A DNA stretch of 64,000 bases from Caldilineaceae bacterium SB0661_bin_34. Lineage in GTDB: Bacteria; Chloroflexota; Anaerolineae; Caldilineales; Caldilineaceae. The stretch covers positions 1 through 64,000 of the forward strand of contig VXMJ01000063.1 in the NCBI GenBank assembly GCA_009841145.1. The letters are read 5' to 3'. Below the pieces are notes generated by a model, which worked only from the letters and a program-made list of their open reading frames with translations, was not told the origin of the DNA and ran no database searches. Of this stretch, positions 31,784 to 50,229 are shown piece by piece; position 1 is the stretch's first letter; the number at the start of each line of letters is the position of its first letter. The position numbers were made by a program, and so were the translations under genes.

Positions 31784-33253
31784 CTACTTCAACACCGTGA
31801 ACTCGGTGGTGGTGAGGCCGTCAATTCCCGCAGCCGTCATCTTGTAGTCCGTGACAGTGACAGTACCACTGCGCTCGGTGTCCTTGGGCCGCACCTTCAG
31901 TGTGGCCACCGGACTGATGACCTCGTCGTCTTCGTTGATCGCCCAAGCCGTGATCGTATAGGTCGTGTCACTTGTGAACGTGTCGATGGGGAAGTCCCGA
32001 TGCTCGTTCGGTGCTTCCGCAAACACGGTGCCGTCAATATCAGCCGCCGTAGTAGTTAGAGCGTAAGAGGCGTCGTTGCCGTTGTCATCTGCGTCAGGGG
32101 CACTAGTGTCGGGGACAGCGGGGGTGATAGTGCCAGTGTTAGCGAGATCAAAGGAGTCAACCTTGACCATGGAGAGATAGCCCGGTACCAGTCCTCCATT
32201 CCGGTTAATCACCGCACTGCTGACGTGCGCCGCCACCGTGATGTCATCACCGTCCACGATCCGAACGTTGCTCAGAGCGTAGTCGTTTATCGTGCGCTCC
32301 TCAGGTTTGTCCGATGTCGCGAACGTTGGATCCTGGGTCACGCCATACAGGAACAGTGCCACCGGCGTCTTGAGTGAGAACGCGTCGGTCGTGTCTACCC
32401 CATCGTGGTTGAGTTCGACGGCATCCCTGTCGCTCTTGTAGCTGCTCGCCACCGTGGCCACGTCGTCACCTTCACTCACCACATCGCCGTCTTCGTCCTC
32501 GATGCGGATGATGTAGGCGTCGAATTCCACGTCCTCCCGCTCGACATCGGTCTCGTTGCTGGAGTGCGCCAGGCCAATCCTCAGCCGCGCGGTTGACGGG
32601 GTCGTCACCATATCGGAGTCATCCGACTTGTAGTTGCCGAAGTTCTCGTTGTAGCCGACGTAGTACAGCATGCCGGCCACTGCTTGGGAATTGACTTTGA
32701 GGTCCCCGGCCTTGCCTGTCCTCGTGGGAAGTGTCACCCCGGTCACCTGGCGCCATGCGGTTGAGAAGGCCGGCTCGGTCAGGCTCTGGTTAATGCGCTT
32801 CTCCAGAATGTCGCTGATCAGGTACTTGCCATCCGCGGTATCGACCACGATCGCCATCTGAACCGTCACCACTCTGCCGGTGTCAACGTTATCAAAGGTG
32901 ACCTTCGTCGTACCCAGCGACTCGGACTCGGTATGGGAGATGCCGTCGTCCAGAATCACTACGAGGGACGTGCGAAATTTGTTGGGCCCCAAACCCCAGG
33001 TTTCGGGATCGGTGGTCGCCCACGAAACGTTGACCTCATCCTCTTCATCAGAGTCGCGGTTCACGGACAAGTCTGAAATCTGACCATCCCGCAAACGGGT
33101 CTTATGGGGGCAGTCCTTGTAGTCGTTGTCGAACAGGTCGCCAGCCGCCAAGCTGCCGCCACTGATCACGGCCAACGCCAGAAGCGCCAGGAAAAGCCTG
33201 GCCAAGCACTTGCCGGGTGCGGAACTCAGAAACTGGGGAAAGGAGTGAGCCAT
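31784..33253 (-). CDS. Secreted acidic protein with FnIII/Ig-like segments
   Basis: Signal peptide LARLFLALLALAVISGGSLAAG; repeated beta-sandwich-like stretches (VNVSWATTDPETWGLG..., TYTITAWAINEDDEVISPVATLKV). RBS aggagg. Confidence 0.7.
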   Translation of the reverse strand: MAHSFPQFLSSAPGKCLARLFLALLALAVISGGSLAAGDLFDNDYKDCPHKTRLRDGQISDLSVNRDSDEEDEVNVSWATTDPETWGLGPNKFRTSLVVILDDGISHTESESLGTTKVTFDNVDTGRVVTVQMAIVVDTADGKYLISDILEKRINQSLTEPAFSTAWRQVTGVTLPTRTGKAGDLKVNSQAVAGMLYYVGYNENFGNYKSDDSDMVTTPSTARLRIGLAHSSNETDVEREDVEFDAYIIRIEDEDGDVVSEGDDVATVASSYKSDRDAVELNHDGVDTTDAFSLKTPVALFLYGVTQDPTFATSDKPEERTINDYALSNVRIVDGDDITVAAHVSSAVINRNGGLVPGYLSMVKVDSFDLANTGTITPAVPDTSAPDADDNGNDASYALTTTAADIDGTVFAEAPNEHRDFPIDTFTSDTTYTITAWAINEDDEVISPVATLKVRPKDTERSGTVTVTDYKMTAAGIDGLTTTEFTVLK

Positions 33254-33342: not shown

Positions 33343-33399
33343 AGGATAGCAGAAGTCTACGTGAATACCAAGTGATGATTTAGTGATCAAGTAGGTGAT
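33343..33399 (-). promoter_or_regulatory. Four GTGA repeats (TCAC on the minus strand) spaced 11/11/12 bp, followed by extended -10 TGCTATCCT
   Basis: GTGA at 33361, 33372, 33383, 33395 on + strand; AGGATA (TATCCT on -) at 33343-33348. Confidence 0.6.
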
Positions 33400-41570: not shown

Positions 41571-41802
41571 CGACAACAGGCCAGCCGGATGAGGCTTCCA
41601 AGTCAAGGGCCCTGCCGTTGAGTGGCAGGAATGCCTGTGCACCGATGTACCCATGGACAGGACACCCCGGCAACCAGGTGGGAGACCGTGAGAGACCGGT
41701 ACACGGACCGGCGTTGTCTTGACACCATTGCGCAGGATTTTGTCACGTATGGAGTCCATATGATGGCTTCAGGGCAGCATATACGACTTTGCAACGATTG
41801 TC

Positions 41803-41843
41803 TTCACCTGTTGTTCACCTCAAATTCACATTCATGCTACAAT
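41803..41843 (+). promoter_or_regulatory. Three TTCAC direct repeats with exact 11-bp period plus extended -10 (TGCTACAAT)
   Basis: TTCACCTGTTG|TTCACCTCAAA|TTCACATTCAT starting at 41803, 41814, 41825; TACAAT at 41838-41843. Confidence 0.75.
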
Positions 41844-41961: not shown

Positions 41962-43314
41962 GTGATCAAGGGAACTCGCTACTTGCTCAGGAGTGCCTCG
42001 CTGGCGCTCCTAGCCCTGACGTTGATGGTAGCCATGGCGTTGCCGTCCTCGGCGGCCGATGATAAGTGCAGCCCCAGCCAGATGTTGGATGAAGTTGAGA
42101 TCGTCAGTGTTGCGGCCAAGGAAGCTCCGGCTGTCTGGAGCGCCCAGGACTTGGTGAACTTCGACTATGACGGCGACATCGAGAACGGGCTCTTGGAAGT
42201 CAGCTTCAAGGACATTCCCACCGACTTCGACTTCGATGGCTACATCATTGAGGCTGTACCCGGCGACGATGACCCCGGCGACTCCAAAGCGTTGGGGGTG
42301 GCCGCCTACACAACTTCTTCGCTGATCGCACGACCCTCCGTTGTCGGTTCCACGGTTACGGAGATTCTGAACCTCGAGCCCGGCACGAAGTACTACGTGA
42401 CGGTCTATGCCATCAACCACAATACGGTGCAAATCAGCCCGAACCAGCGTGCACAAGACAGCAGTTCGGCCACGACGCTGCTGAGTGCTCCGTTCCTAGG
42501 GGCACTCGAGGTGGGGAGAGGGGCTGTTCATACTGAAGATACTGCTTCCACTTGGACCCTTGACGTTCCATTGACTGATTGTGCAACTCCAGCGGCCAAC
42601 TCTGCCTGCCAAACCGTCGATTGGTGGGATGTTGACTTGGAAGACAAGGATTATCAGGGCGCGCACTTTGCGTTCTACGATGCAGAGGACGAAGCGGGAC
42701 AGCACTACTTCCGCTGGCTGAACCCCGGCGACTACGGTCCCTTTGACCATGTCCTAGCCAAGAAGGATAACAAGCAGGCCGACATGTTATCCCTTGACAA
42801 GGACGGCGACGTGGAAAACCACTGCGATGCTGATGATATCGGCGGCGACTGCGGTCATACCCACTACCAGTTCAAGGCCGTGGACGACAACGGCAACACC
42901 GTGGCCAGCGAACTGGTGGAGACCGACGGCAAGTTCACGATGAATTCTGGTACCGGTAGGGGTTACTTCCAGACGGTGTTTACCGCCGAGAATGGCGATC
43001 TGACCCTGTCCGTCTCACTGGGACGCATGGTCGGCGGCAAGTACAAGGCCATGAGCGACACCGCGTCCGTGATGTTCGAGGCTCCGGGTGATCTGAGGGC
43101 TCTTGACCAGACATATAACGAGTACGCGCGGGTCAACGCGGATATCGCCAAGGACGTGAACGAGGTAGATGACATCGAAAGGTATCTCGATTCGGTCTTT
43201 GCTGAACTCACAAGCATCGATGAGCAGGCCGAGCGTTTCAAGAACGACAAGCAGGTAGATGGTGCACCAGCCAACAACAAGATGGTGGCCTATCTCAACA
43301 ACCAGTTGAAGTAA
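41962..43314 (+). CDS. Secreted acidic protein with FnIII-like segment
   Basis: GTG start in frame; signal peptide IKGTRYLLRSASLALLALTLMVAMALPSSAA; FnIII-like VTEILNLEPGTKYYVTVYAINHNT. Confidence 0.72.
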   Translation: MIKGTRYLLRSASLALLALTLMVAMALPSSAADDKCSPSQMLDEVEIVSVAAKEAPAVWSAQDLVNFDYDGDIENGLLEVSFKDIPTDFDFDGYIIEAVPGDDDPGDSKALGVAAYTTSSLIARPSVVGSTVTEILNLEPGTKYYVTVYAINHNTVQISPNQRAQDSSSATTLLSAPFLGALEVGRGAVHTEDTASTWTLDVPLTDCATPAANSACQTVDWWDVDLEDKDYQGAHFAFYDAEDEAGQHYFRWLNPGDYGPFDHVLAKKDNKQADMLSLDKDGDVENHCDADDIGGDCGHTHYQFKAVDDNGNTVASELVETDGKFTMNSGTGRGYFQTVFTAENGDLTLSVSLGRMVGGKYKAMSDTASVMFEAPGDLRALDQTYNEYARVNADIAKDVNEVDDIERYLDSVFAELTSIDEQAERFKNDKQVDGAPANNKMVAYLNNQLK

Positions 43315-43344: not shown

Positions 43345-43449
43345 ATGCGCACTTGGACAAAGCCCGTATTGGTGAAGCTGGACATCGCTGAGACCCTCAG
43401 GGGTCAAGGCCCCTGTCCCGATGGCGACGGTGGCTCGGAAGCCATGTAG
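43345..43449 (+). CDS. 34-aa RiPP/lasso-precursor-like peptide (not in supplied ORF track)
   Basis: MRTWTKPVLVKLDIAETLRGQGPCPDGDGGSEAM*; RBS AGGAGA at 43331; terminator 43 bp after the stop. Confidence 0.6.
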   Translation: MRTWTKPVLVKLDIAETLRGQGPCPDGDGGSEAM

Positions 43450-46050: not shown

Positions 46051-48447
46051 TCACCCGTCCCGCTCTTCCTTGGCCGGCCCCAGCCGGTAACCTGCTCTGG
46101 GCTCGTTGAAGATGTACTTGGGATTGGCGGCACTCTCCCCCAGCTTCTGGCGCAGTCGCTTCACGTAGGCTCGCACCACGCTGAAATCGGCGGCCTCCCG
46201 CACCGACCAGACACGGCTCATCAAGTGCTCTCGGTTCAGCACCTGCCCTGCGTTCACTGCAAGCTCGCAGAGCAAACGATACTCCGTTGCGGTCAACTCC
46301 ACCACCCGGTCGCCCACCGTCACCCGGTGCCGGACGTAGTCGATGACCAGTTCCCCCAACCGGAAGGATTCCTGGTACAACTCCCTTTCCGGCGCCTCCC
46401 GGCGCCGCAGCGCAGCCCCCACCCGGGCCACCAACTCGGTGGGCGAGAAGGGCTTGGCGATGTAGTCGTCGGCTCCCGCCTCGAAGGCCAACGCAGGATC
46501 CTGCCCCTGCTCCGACAGCACCATCACCGGTGCATCGGTTACCTTCAACACGCGCTGCATCAGTTCCAACCCGTCGGTCCCGGACAGCGTCGAGGCCAGC
46601 AGCACCAGGTGGGGCCGCTCCACCTTAATGAGCCGCTCCATCTCCTCAGGGTCCCAGGTGACGATCAGGGTGTAGCCCGTTTCTGTCAGCGTATTGCGTA
46701 TGTGCCACAGCATCTGGGGGTCGTCGTCCACCACCAACACGCGTCCCTGCCCACGGACTGCTCGCCGCGCGCCGGCAGAAGACCGGCGCGACGCGGTCTC
46801 CTCGGCCACCGGCAGGGTGAAGAGAAACCGGGCCCCCAGGCCGGGCCCGTCGCTCTCGGCCCAGATGCGGCCTCCGTGGGCCTCCACGATACCCCGGCAC
46901 ACCGCCAGGCCCAAGGCGTCTCTTCCGGTCCCGTTCCGGTCGTCCCCCGCCTGCCGCCGGGAGGACCTGCGAAACAGCAGGGGCAAGGGCTGGAACGGTA
47001 TGCCCCGGCCCTGGTCGGTTATGCACACCGCCACGTGCGGATCCTCCTGGCGGGCGTTCACCGTGACCACGGATCCCTCCGCGGAGTAGTCGGAGGCGTT
47101 GGCCAGGAGGTGTTCCAGCACTTGGAGCACCCGCTGCCGGTCTGCCATTACCCGGGGTAGCTCCAAGGGCAGGTCCACCTCCACCGGATTGTCGGCCCTG
47201 CCCCCCAGAAACGATACCTTGGCCTGGCTCACCAGGGATGCCAGGTCCGTGGGTTCGGGGGTCAGGAACAGCATTCCCGCCTCGATGCGGGCTGCCTCCA
47301 GCAGATCCCAGATCAGGCCCCGCATCCGGTCAGCCTGCCACTCGATGATGCCGAAGAACTGGCGGGCTTTGGTTAGGTCCAGTCGAGCCAGGTCCTCCAG
47401 CACGGCGGCGGCGGAACCCTTGATGGAGGTCAGGGGCGTCAACAGTTCCTGGCTCACCGTGTCCAGGAACTCAGCTCGCTGTCGGCCCAACTCCTTCATG
47501 GGTGCCAAATCTTGCAGGGTGACCACCAGCGATGCCACACCGCCTTCCTCGGAGAGGATGGGCGTGGCGTTGATGAGGACGTTGACCCGGCGTCCGTCGG
47601 GGACCCTGAGGACGATCTCCTCGGCTCGTATCGTTTCTCCGGAGTTCAGCATCCGGATCAGCGGGTACGTCTTCAGGGAGATCTCCCGCCCGTCAGCCCG
47701 CTGGAAGGTCAACACCTCCAGCAACTGCTCCAGACTTTGGTCCGGGTCGCGCAGCCCGCCCACGATCCGCTGGGCCTCCCGGTTGCATGACAACAGTGTT
47801 CCCGTTCCGGTGTCGAAAATCGCCACGCCCACCAACGGGGTGTTGACCAGCGTCTCTAGGTCGGTCCGGGCCTGCTGCATCTCCCGGTATTGGCGGGAAT
47901 TGGCGACGGCCAAGGCCGCCTGGGAGGTGAAGAGCACCAGCACCCCCTCGTCCTCCGAGGTGAACGCAGCCTCCCCCTCCTTGCCTGCCAGGTAGAGGCT
48001 TCCCACCCGGTGTCCCAAGTGCCGGATGGGGGCTCCCAGGAAGGCTGCCATCGGCCCCAGGGGTGGACCGATAGCGGGCAGACCCACGGCCCGCGCGTAG
48101 GCGGAGAAGTCCGTAACCCGCAACGGTTCCGGCAGACCGCCCATGTGCTCGAAGAACTCCAACCCGCCGGGCAGGGCCACCACCAACTGGTGCTCCTCCG
48201 GGGTCAGGCCGGAGGTGATGATGTGCTGCAACTGCCCGCTGTCGTCCAGGATGATGATGCCGCCGTGACGAGCTCCGGTCAGGGAACAAACTTCGTCCAC
48301 CACGCTCTGCAGCATGGTGTCCAAGTCCAGGGTCTCGGTGATGCGGATGTTGTTCTGGCTCATGCGGGCGAGGCGATTGCCGGCATGAGCTGGACTTTCG
48401 GGTTCCAGCTTCGCTGCTTGGTTCAGGGCACCCTCCGCCCGTAGCAC
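46051..48447 (-). CDS. GAF/PAS hybrid histidine kinase-response regulator with C-terminal OmpR/PhoB-type DNA-binding domain
   Basis: GAF (MLQSVVDEVCSLTGARHGGIIILDD), HATPase (ITDQGRGIPF...LGLAVCRGIVEAHGGRIWAES), REC-like (RVLVVDDDPQMLWHIRNTL), wHTH (VVELTATEYRLLCELAVNAGQVLNREHLMSRVW...). Confidence 0.9.
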   Translation of the reverse strand: MLRAEGALNQAAKLEPESPAHAGNRLARMSQNNIRITETLDLDTMLQSVVDEVCSLTGARHGGIIILDDSGQLQHIITSGLTPEEHQLVVALPGGLEFFEHMGGLPEPLRVTDFSAYARAVGLPAIGPPLGPMAAFLGAPIRHLGHRVGSLYLAGKEGEAAFTSEDEGVLVLFTSQAALAVANSRQYREMQQARTDLETLVNTPLVGVAIFDTGTGTLLSCNREAQRIVGGLRDPDQSLEQLLEVLTFQRADGREISLKTYPLIRMLNSGETIRAEEIVLRVPDGRRVNVLINATPILSEEGGVASLVVTLQDLAPMKELGRQRAEFLDTVSQELLTPLTSIKGSAAAVLEDLARLDLTKARQFFGIIEWQADRMRGLIWDLLEAARIEAGMLFLTPEPTDLASLVSQAKVSFLGGRADNPVEVDLPLELPRVMADRQRVLQVLEHLLANASDYSAEGSVVTVNARQEDPHVAVCITDQGRGIPFQPLPLLFRRSSRRQAGDDRNGTGRDALGLAVCRGIVEAHGGRIWAESDGPGLGARFLFTLPVAEETASRRSSAGARRAVRGQGRVLVVDDDPQMLWHIRNTLTETGYTLIVTWDPEEMERLIKVERPHLVLLASTLSGTDGLELMQRVLKVTDAPVMVLSEQGQDPALAFEAGADDYIAKPFSPTELVARVGAALRRREAPERELYQESFRLGELVIDYVRHRVTVGDRVVELTATEYRLLCELAVNAGQVLNREHLMSRVWSVREAADFSVVRAYVKRLRQKLGESAANPKYIFNEPRAGYRLGPAKEERDG

Positions 48448-48531
48448 TGACTCCGGGAGTCAGTATAGCACGGTAAATTGCCCCAGCGGGCTGCAAGCAA
48501 CCTATATTATCACTAAAATAATTACTCTTTT

Positions 48532-48550
48532 TTCACCTATAATTCACATA
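48532..48550 (+). promoter_or_regulatory. Two TTCAC direct repeats with 11-bp spacing in an AT-rich island
   Basis: TTCACCTATAA|TTCACATATAT at 48532 and 48543; shares TTCACCT-NN-AATTCACAT with 41814-41831. Confidence 0.55.
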
Positions 48551-48717: not shown

Positions 48718-49215
48718 ATGTTAAGACGGACGATCCTCCTTCCGTTCCTGCTGACGCAGGTCGGCCTCATTCTCTCCGGCGACGGCGCGTGGGACTCGCA
48801 CACCCTGTCCGCTGTGCGCTTGCCTCCCGAACAGGGTGCGTGTGGAACGGGCCGGCAAAGACGACGAACTACAGATAATATGGGACACTCCCAATCCAGC
48901 GGCCTGGGGACTGAACGGCTACACGGCAACGATCACGGTCATCGTGGTTGCGAGGGAATGCGATCACCTCCTTGACCGCAGAGTTCCATGTCTTCTCCCA
49001 CATCTGCACTGTCAATTTCAACGACGAAGTCAGTTGCTAGGAAGCAACTTCACAGGTCTACGGAGGTCCTGTCACCACGATACCTGTGGGACTGAAGGAA
49101 TCCAATGTAACCATGGGCCTATACCACCTATGTGCACCGAAGCTGTGGGACTCGAAACCGGTTTGCCGGGGCAAGTCGGCGGACCCAATCCCAATTCCCC
49201 GCCGTGGTCAAGTTG
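48718..49215 (+). pseudogene. Decayed relative of the secreted acidic protein family
   Basis: MLRRTILLPFLLTQVGLILSG, then in another frame ERAGKDDELQIIWDTPNPAAWGLNGYTATITVIV, resembling DEEDEVNVSWATTDPETWGLGPNKFRTSLVVIL of 31784-33253. Confidence 0.55.
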
Positions 49216-50229
49216 AGCCGTATTTCCTGCCCGGGACCGCAGTCCCGGGGGACTGTTTGGGTTTCGTTGATGCGGGTTTGAGCTCGAGACCTCGGCTCCG
49301 CGCGCGAAGAAAGTCCCATCTGCTCGGCTTAGGCCTTGGTGACCGCGGTCCCCAAGGGGCTACTCGTCCAGGATGGCCAGCTCGACTACCACGGCCGGCG
49401 CTCTCTCCCTCCGTGCTCCCAAAGCGGTTGCCAAGGACCCGCAGGAACGGGATCACATCCCCGGTGTCAGCTGTTGTCCCTATGTGAACGATCATCCCCC
49501 GCGATGGCACACAACGCGTGAAGCAAGCCCCCAGCTGTTTGGAATCCAGCCGCGCGAAGACGCGCCCGAAGGTGTCTTGCAAGGGGGCCATGGTGCAGGT
49601 CCAGGAAGATCTCCGTCCGAACCTGCTTCTGGCGATCACACAGTTCCCCCTCGATCCCGCGGCCGGTGCCACAGATCACGGCTGGGCTCGCAATCAGGAG
49701 GATGCTTTCCAGCGAATGACACCAAGCCCGGAACCGACGGGGAACGTCCACCCCGACACTGTTTCATTCTCGTTGATGCTGCTCCGAAGCCCGGTGAGGA
49801 GAAAGGCCCCGCGTTATCGGGTTTCCCCCAAAAGAACCAACAAGGGACCTTTGCCGTGGACTTCATCCCGGCTCCCGGGTCCGGTGCGGCGTGCGATTGG
49901 TCGTTGCCGGTGAGAATGCCCGGGACCGGCGGTTGGATTGGCCGAAATCATCACTAATTCAATCACCCGAAGTTTACTCTATACTCACTGATAGTTTTGC
50001 TGGCATGACCACTGAACGCCGCCCAATTGGCCTCCGTATCCAGCCCGGAGACGCTTCTTGGCCAAGAGTGTGTAAGGAGATTTTGGCATGTCGACACAGA
50101 CCCGCGTCCTGGACGTGTGCGCCTCCCCCCTCCCCGAATTTTCGGGAAGGCAGGACCATGAGCCGGTGCCTGCGCTGGAGACTGCTATGCCTGCTGGTGT
50201 CGCTCGTGCTCGGTCTGGAGACCGCGGGG

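Follow-up and report, generated by a model that had tools for sequence, protein, structure and literature searches.

PHO boxes are built of direct repeats with a unit length of 11 nt; their sequence is CTGTCAT in E. coli, and S. coelicolor has GTTCACC (PMC4415409). PhoP of M. tuberculosis recognizes TCACAGC repeats with a 7+4 bp period and a strict 4-bp spacer, and three or four such motifs in a row are bound better than two (PMC4832192). The HTCS of Bacteroides are fused kinase-regulators that act as membrane sensors and use phosphorylation (PMC11253607), while RitR of Streptococcus pneumoniae is a regulator with an aspartate-less receiver (PMC5965902; for pseudo-receivers in general see PMC12632262). 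How such pseudo-systems are switched was called a mystery and an open question in a 2025 review (PMC12632262). Our literature search returned no paper on the fused-regulator family treated here or on its operators, and no described regulatory sites for uncultured bacteria related to the sponge-associated SAR202.

The locus described here lies within a 64,000-nucleotide stretch of contig VXMJ01000063.1 from Caldilineaceae bacterium SB0661_bin_34, the whole of which is called the window. The TTCAC repeats at 41803-41843 are probably one of four operators (S1-S4) belonging to a small, cis-encoded local regulon which would be read by a fused regulator. Similarly to the PHO boxes of E. coli PhoB and Streptomyces PhoP, S1-S4 carry, over a core promoter, direct repeats that recur every 11 nt, and their TTCAC core is that of GTTCACC (PMC4415409). 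Unlike a PHO box, the local operator has four units with one 12-bp step, is restricted to one locus, is not found at pst and has a candidate regulator that is no PhoB ortholog. It resembles the M. tuberculosis PhoP operator in the TCAC core and in the 11-bp tandem period (PMC4832192).

An array TTCACCTGTTG-TTCACCTCAAA-TTCACATTCATGCTACAAT followed by an extended -10 had been claimed for 41803-41843 in an earlier note, and both are present in the sequence of the plus strand, the repeats with start-to-start distances of 11 and 11 bp and the -10 as TGC-TACAAT. A scan of the window for the motif TTCAC-N6-TTCAC gave three occurrences (0.09 expected), one of which, at 48532, is near the start of the fused sensor-regulator gene. 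The exact triple TTCAC repeat occurs once in the 4.34-Mb genome, with two further instances at one mismatch. The latter, on contigs C18 and C49 of G000, were not returned by the operator profile and were taken as chance. The repeats are thus not frequent at random positions in the genome, as judged by pattern and profile searches of its full length, which removes one of the grounds on which the earlier reading could have been rejected.

The triple repeat belongs to a larger module, in which four (A/T)TCAC units follow one another at 12/11/11 bp, a plan which S1 shares with sites at 33.4, 48.5 and 50.0 kb that are absent from the earlier note (Table 1). On a 20-point scale S2 scores 20, S4 19, S3 18 and S1 17, the latter owing its rank to the poor most upstream unit (GCAAC, 41791), its three TTCACs being perfect. 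In first-order Markov resamples of the window, amounting to one genome-equivalent, a score of at least 18 was never seen and a score of 17 about three times per genome-equivalent. A pattern search of all 102 contigs of the genome (4.34 Mb; up to three mismatches) found the four sites on this contig and one other place, a four-unit pattern with three mismatches on contig C6 of G000, taken as chance since the profile did not return it. The profile, built from six sites, returned only S1-S4 in the genome (27.6-29.9 bits), with no other match at E<=10. When each site was held out in turn, it still ranked first among the remaining positions of the window, with 24-40 bits versus 12-13 for the best unrelated position (for S1, 24.5 versus 12.3). 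All four sites in the genome lie at 33.4-50.0 kb of the contig, a span of 17 kb with the regulator gene in its midst. A profile match in G185 (E=0.004) lacks a clean TTCAC array and is probably a chance match.

Table 1 Features of the S1-S4 locus (positions in the window)
Feature	Position	Strand	Description
Secreted-protein gene downstream of S2	31784-33253	-	about 10 paralogs in each genome of the genus
-10 of S2 promoter	33343-33348	-	TATCCT (extended TGC), 17 bp from start of last TTCAC
Operator S2	33361-33399	-	four perfect units, ATCAC-12-ATCAC-11-ATCAC-11-TTCAC
Operator S1	41791-41829	+	weak GCAAC 41791, TTCAC 41803, 41814, 41825; spacing 12/11/11
Extended -10 of S1 promoter	41835-41843	+	TGC-TACAAT, 13 bp from start of last TTCAC
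Secreted protein downstream of S1	41962-43314	+	signal peptide and fibronectin-III-like part; GTG start 41962 after AGGAG
34-aa peptide	43345-43449	+	MRTWTKPVLVKLDIAETLRGQGPCPDGDGGSEAM, paeninodin-lasso-leader-like; forms a unit with the secreted gene behind S1
Fused regulator, 798 aa	46051-48447	-	GAF-PAS-HisKA-HATPase-REC-Trans_reg_C in one chain (Pfam)
Winged-helix DNA-binding domain, residues 707-790	46078-46329	-	Trans_reg_C, E=4e-19; recognition helix VVRAYVKRLRQKLGE
-10 of the regulator's own promoter	48463-48468	-	TATACT (extended TGC), about 40 bp from S4; aligns with TACACT at L072 9967
Operator S4	48509-48547	+	between divergent regulator gene and decayed secreted-protein gene; position matches L072 9887-9925
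Remnant of S2-family secreted-protein gene	48842-48979	+	downstream of S4; tblastn E=7e-6, frame broken
Operator S3	49950-49988	+	ATCAC-12-ATCAC-11-TTTAC-11-CTCAC; TGC-TGGCAT (50001-50006) at 17 bp

The last unit starts 13 bp from the -10 at S1 and 16-17 bp from it at S2, S3 and their counterparts in the related genomes bin127 and G003; S4 shows no good -10 of its own. The difference does not correspond to one helical turn, and given this geometry S1 may be regulated differently from S2, S3 and the bin127 sites. The approximately 11-bp period (12/11/11 for the module, 11/11 for the perfect repeats) and the location at the core promoter are those of an OmpR/PhoB-type direct-repeat operator.

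S2 precedes an intact secreted-protein gene and S4 a decayed one, and S3 lies in one further promoter. The assignment of a fibronectin-III-like part to the secreted protein behind S1 draws on an fn3 match below the Pfam cut-off (E=1e-4) and on a profile comparison with fibronectin structures (E=4e-6), the AlphaFold model (pLDDT 36) being too poor for use. The 34-aa peptide scores 15.3 bits with the NCBIfam paeninodin lasso precursor model, below the cut-off of 27; its counterparts behind the three homologs of the S1 secreted gene are all 97% identical, the products of those genes only 72-75%. The family of the secreted protein behind S2 was found, among 37 genomes, in this genus only. Paralogs of this protein (upstream regions L046, L048, L045 and L070) have a different conserved promoter, TTGGCA-N17-TACAAT, that lacks the operator repeats. 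No intact gene follows S3 in this genome; in the aligned segment of the sister species G003 (contig C66) the 12/11/11/17 geometry of operator and promoter is kept, the -10 is better (an intact TGC-TAGAAT), and the promoter stands before an MPAB_Lcp_cat oxygenase gene.

The most likely binder of S1-S4 is the putative fused regulator encoded in their midst. Its winged-helix domain has YycF, MtrA, KdpE, PhoP and PhoB as relatives in the PDB, and the distance of about 40 bp between the -10 of its own gene and S4 fits shared divergent control. Alignment from the residues named for M. tuberculosis PhoP (PMC4832192) indicates that the local regulator retains the Val and the Tyr by which the 5' T-C is read. 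The other helix residues differ, and PhoP, unlike the local protein, is a separate response regulator with no fused kinase. The closest relative that we found, from SAR202 cluster bacterium bin127 (locus L072), is 67% identical and has an identical recognition helix VVRAYVKRLRQKLGE, while the helix is different in about 20 paralogs (42-53% identity), near none of which a TTCAC array was found. In a comparison of the window protein with its bin127 ortholog, helix and wing, a segment of only 26 codons, have a dN/dS of 0.05; the value rises to 0.16 over the whole DNA-binding domain and to 0.51 in the GAF sensor. The promoters of sister-genus paralogs carry TGTCA pairs, 19 of them at distance 11 versus 3-9 at each of the other distances (in random stretches the mean was 1.5 and the maximum 7), several of the counted promoters being mutually related.

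Conservation of the repeats in related genomes, by which the claim of the earlier note was to be judged, fails for the secreted-protein/peptide unit and holds with the regulator in bin127 and at S3 in G003. The promoters of the three homologs of the unit (in G002, in G001 and on contig C35 of the same genome) have a different upstream sequence and no TTCAC repeats, and at about 30 loci of secreted-protein homologs no operator was found outside this contig; the operator is therefore not a feature of the secreted-protein gene family. In bin127, two 12/11/11 operators lie beside the regulator ortholog, one of them divergent like S4, and each has CCCTATAAT downstream, 16 bp from where the last unit begins. 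They are the only two profile matches in that genome (34 bits), both at the regulator locus, and they also come first in that locus when the profile is trained solely on the window sites. The two operators are a duplicated pair (81% over 265 bp) and were therefore counted as one independent conservation. The genes behind them encode a membrane protein and a lipoprotein-like protein, unlike the proteins behind S1 and S2 and with no Pfam family match. As the pairing is kept in bin127 with unlike genes downstream, and as homologs of the unit have no repeats, the operator travels with the regulator and not with the secreted unit. The nature of the operator proposed in the earlier note, that of an OmpR/PhoB-type winged-helix protein, finds support in the 11-bp repeats over the core promoter, in the regulator gene amid the sites and in the bin127 pairing. 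At L072 7640-7810 the 5' end of the regulator gene has been duplicated together with the divergent operator and now stands before the lipoprotein-like gene, a case in which a new target has acquired a copy of an operator.

Similarly to the Bacteroides HTCS, the local regulator has a sensor kinase, a receiver and a DNA-binding domain in one polypeptide (PMC11253607), as a hybrid two-component system does; unlike them it has a winged-helix output, a GAF/PAS input and neither phospho-His nor phospho-Asp. Alignment of the H-box and D-box places Q333 (codon CAG) at the phospho-His and A618 (codon GCC) at the phospho-Asp position. The H-box reads VSQELLTP in the window regulator and VSQELLAP in that of bin127, so that His is replaced by Gln in both, and the receiver motif is LLA in the former (Asp to Ala) and LLD in the latter (Asp kept). 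Most sister-genus paralogs retain both residues (SHEL.TP and LLD). In another group, from this genus (G000:C56, G003:C104 and G001:C192), His is replaced by Arg, Asp by Ser and Lys by Arg; G001:C155 likewise carries Arg in place of His. The proteins without the His group together in the tree, with moderate support (92 SH-aLRT) and on long branches; His may have been lost once or several times, the tree fitting either. With Ala at the Asp position, the receiver is still recognized as Response_reg (E=7e-19) and is of the aspartate-less kind. The local regulator is like RitR in having lost the phosphorylated Asp and kept the DNA-binding domain (PMC5965902) and differs from it in the fused kinase part, the His of which is also lost (to Gln). 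The loss of both residues suggests a local switch that would be independent of phosphorylation.

In the proposed mechanism the fused regulator would read all four sites, its winged-helix domains binding head to tail on the four (A/T)TCAC half-sites, which the 12/11/11-bp spacing would present on one face of the DNA. A signal sensed by the GAF/PAS part would bring about a conformational change in the dimeric polypeptide which would be passed to the DNA-binding part without phosphorylation; we infer conformational signalling because His (Q333) and Asp (A618), required for phosphotransfer, are gone. S4 would be a divergent control region shared with the regulator gene, which is then probably autoregulated, and the regulator would control nearby secreted-protein genes, including the secreted-protein/peptide unit behind S1. 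For promoters lacking a -35 (S2, S3 and bin127), activation would be the more likely sign of control.

A PHO box, by which PhoB/PhoP-type phosphate control would act on the secreted-protein/peptide unit, is suggested by the likeness of the S1 core to the Streptomyces PHO box GTTCACC with its 11-nt units (PMC4415409), but it is a very improbable reading, for contig C68 carries the pst operon (PstS-PstC-PstA-PstB-PhoU) together with its own PhoBR-like pair, which shares about 26% identity with the local regulator, and the promoter upstream of pstS has no TTCAC array. The operon was located through PstB, the PstS family TIGR00975 having no match in the genus despite a PstS-like gene next to pstB. 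The genome-wide profile matches are the four local sites only, none at pst, and the local regulator reaches 141 bits against a cut-off of 296 for TIGR02154 (PhoB) and is thus not a PhoB ortholog; the phosphate control that the earlier note had considered possible is not borne out. Hardly more credible is an ordinary promoter in an AT-rich intergenic stretch, with repeats that resemble a -35 by chance or are left over from duplicated DNA. The TTCACC at 41814 does occupy the -35 position of the S1 promoter (18-bp spacer), and GC around the repeats is 49.5% versus 63% for the window. Chance expectation, as given above, is far below the observed number of repeats and modules, and the operator is conserved at the same place in another genome, that of bin127. 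Duplication is disfavoured by the 400-bp flanks of S1-S4, between which no similarity was found; the sites are therefore not recent copies, what has been preserved is the repeats themselves, and the idea of one duplicated unit behind all four was given up.

More weight is due to a different OmpR/PhoB-type response regulator, encoded elsewhere, that would bind the sites while the fused regulator merely shares the locus, although we consider this unlikely. TTCAC arrays are found in G001 (contigs C14 and C29) and in G003 (C66), with no ortholog of the regulator detected nearby. Those of G001 have a spacing of 11/11/10 and 13 bp to TGCTAGGAT/TGCTAGAAT, a geometry to which S1, with its 13 bp to the -10, is closer than to the bin127 sites. 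No such fused regulator lies within about 10 kb of the G001 arrays, and none was detected in the draft assembly of G003, which has the S3 counterpart. It may be that these draft assemblies lack the regulator gene or that the genus has a second OmpR-type protein that reads TTCAC. A trans-acting regulator, in turn, would not need every site to be within 17 kb of the fused-regulator gene, and in both genomes that have this gene all profile matches are beside it.

An operator is here paired with its probable regulator by sequence alone, in uncultured SAR202-related bacteria, and both DNA and protein are open to testing in vitro. The regulator represents a natural two-component protein seemingly without phosphotransfer on both sides, its DNA recognition being under selection. 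We put forward, tentatively, that in a lineage of fused sensor-regulators of sponge-associated SAR202-like bacteria the phosphorelay has been given up, with helix and operator kept under strong selection, and that these proteins have become one-molecule, phosphorylation-independent switches of adjacent genes only, each paralog having its own 11-bp-phased operator. The series of paralogs, some intact and some degenerate and with different operators, would let this step be traced.

Two minor observations concern mobile or repetitive DNA. An IS5-like transposase remnant (L107 1547-1990) is directly behind the TTCAC-array promoter of G001:C29. A dispersed 25-36-bp repeat (GGCACTGTTTCGGTTTCGTTGATGTTGG and its complement), MITE- or REP-like, occurs between genes in the window (34329, 34516, 36135, 44853, 45318, 49251 and 49757) and in related genomes.
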